DNA of 64,000 nt. Source: Synergistaceae bacterium (lineage in GTDB: Bacteria; Synergistota; Synergistia; Synergistales; Aminobacteriaceae). Made by a program: the position numbers and the translations under genes. Within the stretch, counting starts at the first letter, position 1, and each line of letters begins with the position of its first letter. Positions 56,121 through 57,196 of this stretch are shown in pieces. The notes under the pieces were generated by a model, which saw only the letters and a list, made by a program, of their open reading frames with translations, searched no databases and was not told where the DNA came from. Location of the stretch: NCBI GenBank assembly GCA_017439345.1, contig JAFSJJ010000044.1, positions 186,001 to 250,000 of the forward strand. Reading direction: 5' to 3'.

Positions 56121-56129
56121 TGATATAAT
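56121..56129 (+). promoter_or_regulatory. Extended -10 promoter of the FtsZ-like gene
   Basis: TGATATAAT ending at 56129, 40 bases before the start at 56169, with CAGGAGG in between. No -35 stands out. Confidence 0.5.
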
Positions 56130-56168
56130 CTGCAAAATTTTTCATATAACAACAGGAGGCTATATCTT

Positions 56169-56597
56169 ATGACGTACACTATTACTTTCAACGGCAGCAC
56201 TATATCATTCAACGCTAAATCACAGAAAGACGCTGAACTCATCAAGCGCGCAATTAATGAAGTCCTCACCATGAACGGCTTCGTTAATCTTGATGTTGAA
56301 GATGTCCAGGCAGTAACAGACGGTGCAGAATTCCTGACAGTATGCGAGGGAACAGGCGAGGGCGACAACAGAGCAGAGGACTCGGCACGCGATGCATTAA
56401 AGAATATGGACATTACGAGTGCTAAGAAAATATTGATAGCAGTCATTACAGGCACTGAAATTACTCTGACTGAAATCAGCGGTGCAGCATTCACGATAGA
56501 AGAGTCATGTTCTCCTGACGCTCAAGTTGTATGGGGTCATGCACTTGATGAGAGTGTAGGCGATAAGGTCAAAACTATATTAATCGCAGCATATTAA
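56169..56597 (+). CDS. Stand-alone FtsZ C-terminal-half protein
   Basis: A 142-residue protein that matches, by eye, the second half of FtsZ. Residues 37-51 (GFVNLDVEDVQAVTD) correspond to the FtsZ GLINLDFADVxTVM stretch, including the T7 loop NxDxxD (N40, D42, D45) that activates GTP hydrolysis in the next subunit. GEGDNRAEDSARDAL matches the NRA-E-AA-AI helix, and residues 83-142 (ILIAVITGTEITLTEI, VVWGHALDE, VKTILIAAY) follow the C-terminal sheet domain. The GTP-binding half (GGGTGTG) and the C-terminal tail peptide are absent. The first 17 residues look like a new beta hairpin. It has its own promoter and AGGAGG. Confidence 0.8.
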   Translation: MTYTITFNGSTISFNAKSQKDAELIKRAINEVLTMNGFVNLDVEDVQAVTDGAEFLTVCEGTGEGDNRAEDSARDALKNMDITSAKKILIAVITGTEITLTEISGAAFTIEESCSPDAQVVWGHALDESVGDKVKTILIAAY

Positions 56598-56659: not shown

Positions 56660-57196
56660 TTGCAGCACAAATGCAAAGTCAGTGTTATCGATATGAAATG
56701 CTTTGACGACCTTCAAGCAAAGTATTTAGCTGATCCAAAATCCGGCGTATGTCCGTTCTATCATGTAGGGGATGAATTTATTTTCGAGCGTTACGATGAG
56801 CAGGACGACTTCTGGCGGGAAGGAAACGGGACTCAGTGTGCCGAAGCATGGGACTGCATCAGCCGTTATATTTACACAGCGTTGCAGGGCGGCAGCATTA
56901 TGAGAAACTGGACTAGTGACGAACGAATCATGATAGCTTGCTGCAACGACGGAACAAGACCCGTAATATTCAAGATTGAACGCATTGATTATAAAGTATT
57001 ATACGTTAATGGTATTCGTGATGACTCTGATAATCAGAAAATAGCGGACTCTCTCAGGAAAATTAGCGGTGTCTCAGGTGTGAATATAAAGCCGAAATTT
57101 ATAGAAGTCATTCTCGATAATAAAAATATTTCGGACGAAGCATTAACCCTCGCAGCAGAGTCAGCAGGAAATTATAAAGTTACGTGCATTGATTGA
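56660..57196 (+). CDS. TIGR04076-like domain fused to HMA-like domain
   Basis: A 178-residue protein. Residues 1-110 match the small TIGR04076 family (CKVSVIDMKCFDDL, VCPFYHVGDEF, CAEAWDCISRYIYTALQGG, IACCNDGTRPVIFKIERI), whose role is unknown. The last 65 residues (KVLYVNGIRDDSDNQKIADSL, VSGVNIKPKFIEVIL) have the beta-alpha-beta pattern of heavy-metal-associated domains but lack the metal-binding CxxC. TTG start at 56660, 9 bases after AGGAGG. It follows the FtsZ-like gene by 62 bases with its own -10. Confidence 0.75.
   Translation: MQHKCKVSVIDMKCFDDLQAKYLADPKSGVCPFYHVGDEFIFERYDEQDDFWREGNGTQCAEAWDCISRYIYTALQGGSIMRNWTSDERIMIACCNDGTRPVIFKIERIDYKVLYVNGIRDDSDNQKIADSLRKISGVSGVNIKPKFIEVILDNKNISDEALTLAAESAGNYKVTCID

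Follow-up and report, generated by a model that had tools for sequence, protein, structure and literature searches.

The window analysed here, the whole stretch of 64,000 nucleotides, encodes a stand-alone C-terminal domain (CTD) of FtsZ, a protein of 142 amino acids at positions 56169-56597 of the plus strand. The protein has the FtsZ_C fold and belongs to a conserved family under purifying selection, in which the T7 (synergy) loop and the strand S9 were retained together with loss of the GTP-binding motifs. We tentatively interpret it as an FtsZ-derived regulator that may dock on the nucleotide face of FtsZ, a reading that falls somewhat short of probable.

Domain content, predicted fold and gene layout

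The gene, recognised from its open reading frame (142 codons with an ATG start, filling exactly the interval given above), the Pfam search, the orthologue alignment and the predicted fold, matches FtsZ_C (PF12327) over residues 61-141 with an E-value of 1.7e-15 and 57.6 bits, the curated cut-off being 27 bits. The GTPase domain (PF00091) was not matched in the Pfam search, and the T1 motif and the GGGTGTG motif of T4 are absent. The score against the FtsZ equivalog model TIGR00065 is 52.4 bits, below the threshold of 295.2. The T7 loop, G37-F-V-N40-L-D42-V-E-D45 in the alignments (56277-56303, plus strand), keeps the catalytic triad N-x-D-x-x-D (N40, D42, D45) intact. The protein terminates one residue past the last strand of the domain and hence has neither a C-terminal linker nor a tail peptide. 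The description given by the first-pass annotation, that of a bottom half of FtsZ with an intact T7 loop and without GTPase domain or tail, is thereby confirmed.

The AlphaFold2 model, built from an 18-row alignment, has a mean pLDDT of 93.5. It predicts an N-terminal beta-hairpin (residues 2-15, strands 2-7 and 10-15; 56172-56213, plus strand), a helix at residues 19-34 that is the remnant of the central helix H7, namely its end (56223-56270, plus strand), followed by H8 (43-50), S7, H9, S8, H10 (100-111), S9 (119-126) and S10 (134-141). S9, with the sequence Q-V-V-W-G-H-A-L (56523-56546, plus strand), forms, by model and conservation, the other conserved part of the nucleotide-facing surface besides the T7 loop. 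Foldseek matched the model to FtsZ structures (E 2.5e-13), and VIA-align 2 superimposed it on 6unx with Z 18.3 and rmsd 2.5 over 138 residues; structure prediction and fold search, suggested at the outset as a check, thus both returned the FtsZ CTD fold. The fold alignment spans FtsZ from residue ~11 (or ~97-99 in B. subtilis FtsZ) to 314. A profile of the nine-member family matched only FtsZ chains among solved structures, the matches mostly starting near profile position 25, at the end of H7. In the fold alignment the hairpin takes the position over H7 that core strands of the GTPase half usually occupy, suggesting that the missing half was replaced by a small cover and not merely cut off. 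The earlier proposal of a hairpin in place of the lost half is thus supported structurally, by this position and by the presence of the hairpin in all nine orthologues.

The genome contains a single Tubulin/FtsZ GTPase domain, in a full ftsZ on another contig within a murC-murB-ftsA-ftsZ-like cluster; the CTD of this FtsZ is 45% identical to the window protein.

An extended -10 element and a ribosome-binding site, both claimed previously, are found in the sequence: the promoter-like element TGATATAAT at 56121-56129 and a Shine-Dalgarno AGGAGG at 56154-56159, 9 nt upstream of the ATG, both on the plus strand. A purine-rich, Shine-Dalgarno-like stretch precedes the start in all nine orthologues, and in one of them (G022) the identical TGATATAAT nonamer starts 41 nt upstream of the initiation codon. 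Since TGNTATAAT is more common in the window than expected (9 occurrences vs. 3.07), TGATATAAT taken alone is weak evidence, and a strict sigma-70 scan, for want of a good -35 element, reports no promoter here. The gene is flanked by a glycosyltransferase gene on the opposite strand and by a TIGR04076 gene. The C-terminal part of the TIGR04076 protein (56660-57196) weakly matches a copper-chaperone (CsoZ) model, and its gene adjoins TRAP transporter genes.

Orthologues and the wider clade of paralogues

Proteins of the same layout (139-144 aa, with the hairpin and the T7 loop) occur in 9 of 43 genomes of the rumen Synergistaceae genus to which the window's genome belongs, in metagenome-assembled genomes (MAGs) from goat rumen and reticulum. 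A scan of genome contigs with an alignment of the family as the query yielded 22 loci; with the single protein as the query it gave no match. Orthologues are 39-51% identical to the window protein and 37-77% identical to each other, while the FtsZ CTDs of the genus are nearly identical. Among the matches listed for 188 genomes of the phylum, the hairpin positions and the domain are filled together only in these nine. The first-pass annotation had looked to homologues of equal length elsewhere in the phylum; among the matches listed, such homologues are found within the genus and in none of the 145 other phylum genomes searched.

Four orthologous genes precede a cstA-like gene and three precede ilvC-ilvD. 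At the eight relatives' loci inspected, neither a GTPase half nor a full-length gene lies upstream, the latter having been named beforehand as the arrangement that would speak against a genuine short gene. For close orthologue pairs, dN/dS values were 0.13/0.63, 0.15/0.82, and 0.20/0.86, i.e., about 0.2, so that the gene is under purifying selection; at the whole-gene level, no sign of positive selection is seen. A phage or plasmid origin was also considered and rejected: a scan of viral contigs found no relative, and the only matches in phage and plasmid collections were distant ones of ~34% identity or less, of which the annotated ones are full FtsZ. One genome (G005, L062:1147-2283) carries two stand-alone copies in tandem, the second with the hairpin and without the T7 triad.

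The window protein is the smallest member of a clade of FtsZ-derived paralogues present in at least 20 of the 43 genomes of the genus; members of the clade also come from sheep, red deer and uncultured Fretibacterium MAGs. Apart from the stand-alone CTD, its forms are proteins of ~210-260 aa with a shrunken GTPase half and FtsZ-ankyrin fusions of ~850-970 aa, in which the ankyrin repeats are C-terminal to the FtsZ part and are in some cases accompanied by a zinc ribbon. For a member of 261 aa, the whole FtsZ fold is predicted (pLDDT 88; Z 33.8 over 257 residues) and the GTP-binding motifs are gone; hence it is a pseudo-GTPase.

In the phylogenetic tree, the paralogues stand apart from all FtsZs with 99/95 support, with the exception of a 297-aa copy. 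The nine stand-alone proteins are grouped in the best tree with weak support (57/24), and pairing of the window protein with the FtsZ of its own genome is rejected (p-AU 0.012). The 297-aa copy (G039, L045:3018-3911) has a shortened GTPase domain, is situated between ftsA and ftsZ and is apparently a tandem duplicate becoming a pseudo-GTPase; its location suggests that the clade began by tandem duplication.

The T7 loop was lost in three paralogues, two ankyrin fusions and the second G005 copy. Each of the two fusions follows immediately after a short FtsZ-derived gene that has T7, and the G005 copy follows the stand-alone gene in the same way. In another genome (G029, L070:6280-6960), a short FtsZ-derived gene, apparently broken by a frame change, precedes a 974-aa ankyrin fusion. 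At three loci (L034:5068-10106, L036:4825-8990, and L042:4548-9192), FtsZ-derived or FtsZ-ankyrin genes are found in runs with a WYL/WCX-type regulator; two of the runs contain a PD-(D/E)XK protein, that of L034 matching the PADLOC candidate PDC-S26, and a flagellin-like gene lies beside two. These runs resemble a defence or stress operon that includes an FtsZ-like component. The FtsZ_C match in an 843-aa open frame of G174 turned out to belong to a GTPase-intact FtsZ whose frame stays open upstream.

Retained residues and possible docking on FtsZ

FtsZ hydrolyses GTP only at the junction of two subunits, one giving the nucleotide and the other the T7 loop. In solved filaments, the T7-bearing subunit makes longitudinal contacts through four named regions, T7, H8, H10, and S9, and the nucleotide of the neighbour is flanked by T7 and S9 (PMC8936486). 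All four regions fall within the domain kept by the window protein. Each of the substitutions N208L, D210N, and D213N suppresses FtsZ assembly (PMC8936486). In S. aureus FtsZ, the GTPase half of the subunit that bears T7 contributes the salt bridge D97-R67; a contact of this type would be missing from the window protein, which has no such half.

Retention within the clade is uneven. The GGGTGTG (T4) and GxGGGG (T1) motifs are kept in none of the 26 aligned paralogues, and the T7 residues are kept in most (N40 in 22/24, D42 in 23/26, and D45 in 24/26), as is the S9 tryptophan W122 (24/25). Other CTD columns that are invariant or nearly invariant in FtsZ have a mean retention of 0.61, and H7 columns 31%; tested against the other CTD columns, retention gives p 0.02 for the T7 triad and 0.01 for T7 with S9. 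Of all elements, T7 and S9 vary least among the nine orthologues. With T1 and T4 lost and T7 kept, what has been selectively preserved is the face docking on a neighbour's nucleotide.

These observations underlie the favoured interpretation, in which the window protein would dock via T7, H8, H10, and S9 onto the nucleotide face of its own genome's FtsZ. An old FtsZ duplicate in the genus would have lost GTP binding and given rise to the regulator, and in the window form a short beta-hairpin over H7 would have taken the place of the whole GTPase half. Docking on free GTP-bound FtsZ could keep the monomer from the growing end; docking on the filament end with an exposed nucleotide face, tentatively the shrinking end (PMC8936486), could cap it and supply catalytic aspartates that might complete the active site. 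Such a capping or hydrolysis role would fit the retained T7 and S9 residues. Without a nucleotide face the protein could not pass the filament on, and hence it would be a low-dose regulator of ends rather than a building block. As nucleotide-face mutations have a lower toxicity than T7-face mutations (PMC8936486), by analogy it may be a mild regulator and not a poison.

Several observations count against docking. The 37-77% identity among orthologues implies faster divergence than would be expected of a protein binding tightly to an invariant surface. The family is present in only 9 of 43 genomes, and its neighbours are metabolic (cstA, ilvC), with no link to division. Finally, the full pre-set interface of T7, H8, H10, and S9 is not significantly more conserved in the nine orthologues, as 16 of 141 circular shifts give a difference at least as large.

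The same face might instead serve in defence. SulA, MciZ and, by prediction, Gp0.4 of phage T7 target the synergy-loop surface of FtsZ, and a defence protein that senses an FtsZ-Gp0.4 complex has been described (PMC13423816). As inhibitors bind the face that the window protein displays, a decoy or guard whose T7/S9/H10 face titrates or senses phage- or host-encoded division inhibitors is a real competitor, though we consider it improbable. The patchy spread and fast divergence of the family would suit an arms race, as would the runs of FtsZ-ankyrin relatives with a WYL regulator and a PD-(D/E)XK protein (PDC-S26 match) suit a defence role. On the other hand, the window gene has no defence genes among the neighbours scanned and no PADLOC match, dN/dS is about 0.2 with no sign of positive selection over the whole gene, and the exact retention of catalytic residues exceeds what a decoy surface needs.

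Rapid divergence and metabolic surroundings (cstA, ilvC, and the TIGR04076 and TRAP genes) are also consistent with a fold repurposed for a job unrelated to FtsZ, e.g., binding of a metabolite or another protein. The T7 loop would then be kept for folding or for K+, which is also coordinated by N208 of the FtsZ T7 loop (PMC8936486). This explanation, too, seems unlikely: retention peaks at nucleotide-facing residues, and the three clade members without T7 are still recognised by the domain profile over other regions, which indicates that the loop is not strictly needed for the fold.

Sequestration of monomers, in which the GTP face of free FtsZ would be bound and division delayed in some condition with no role at filament ends, overlaps with the docking reading and is in itself quite improbable. 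FtsZ monomers are believed to add on through their GTP-loaded nucleotide face, at the T7-exposing end (PMC8936486), so that covering this face would block addition, and a promoter-like element and a ribosome-binding site of its own precede the gene; yet the lower toxicity of nucleotide-face mutations suggests that inhibition by a protein without that face may be only mild. A decaying fragment or an assembly or deletion artefact, as a truncated version of a universal gene might be taken to be, can be dismissed, since the nine orthologues share ends and hairpin on independent contigs, synteny is common to four of them (cstA-like gene) and to three others (ilvC), dN/dS is about 0.2, the tree rejects pairing with the genome's own FtsZ, and identity to the latter is 45% vs. 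near identity among FtsZs of the genus; recent truncation is ruled out on these grounds and, as the first-pass annotation maintained, the gene is no scrap.

Relation to known systems and significance

The window protein shares with FtsZ (TIGR00065; PF00091 and PF12327) the CTD fold, the T7 triad and S9, and differs from it in having no GTPase domain, only the end of H7, a new N-terminal hairpin and no tail peptide. It can be likened to MciZ, SulA, and Gp0.4, small proteins that prevent subunits from associating at the filament interface; these, however, are not derived from FtsZ and bind the T7-bearing face, whereas the window protein itself bears the T7 face, and its target would be the nucleotide face opposite. 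The chloroplast protein ARC3, a negative regulator of FtsZ, combines an FtsZ-like domain with MORN repeats. It resembles the FtsZ-ankyrin relatives in being FtsZ-derived and fused to repeats, but differs from the clade in the repeats and in lineage, and the window protein has no repeats. FtsZl1 and FtsZl2 (Makarova and Koonin, 2010) are likewise paralogues found beside a normal FtsZ; they keep the GTPase core, the C-terminal part of FtsZl1 being unrecognisable (PMC2875224), and the window protein, having lost that core, is the reverse case. A literature search covering papers outside subscription found no description of a family consisting of the FtsZ CTD alone. The domain is FtsZ's own; what is new is the architecture, together with the likely use in trans.

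In its boldest form, the docking interpretation would make the paralogues a genus-specific set of pseudo-GTPase FtsZs, at the extreme of which the synergy-loop domain alone acts in trans as a GTPase-activating filament cap; this we regard as doubtful. A natural protein consisting only of the T7 half would be a reagent for separating the two roles of FtsZ in hydrolysis, and it would allow capping of one chosen filament end and a direct test of which end grows. It would also provide a minimal natural scaffold for FtsZ inhibitors. For the family as a whole, the clade indicates that FtsZ duplicates can lose GTP binding and yet remain under selection, giving rise to a pseudo-GTPase FtsZ family.
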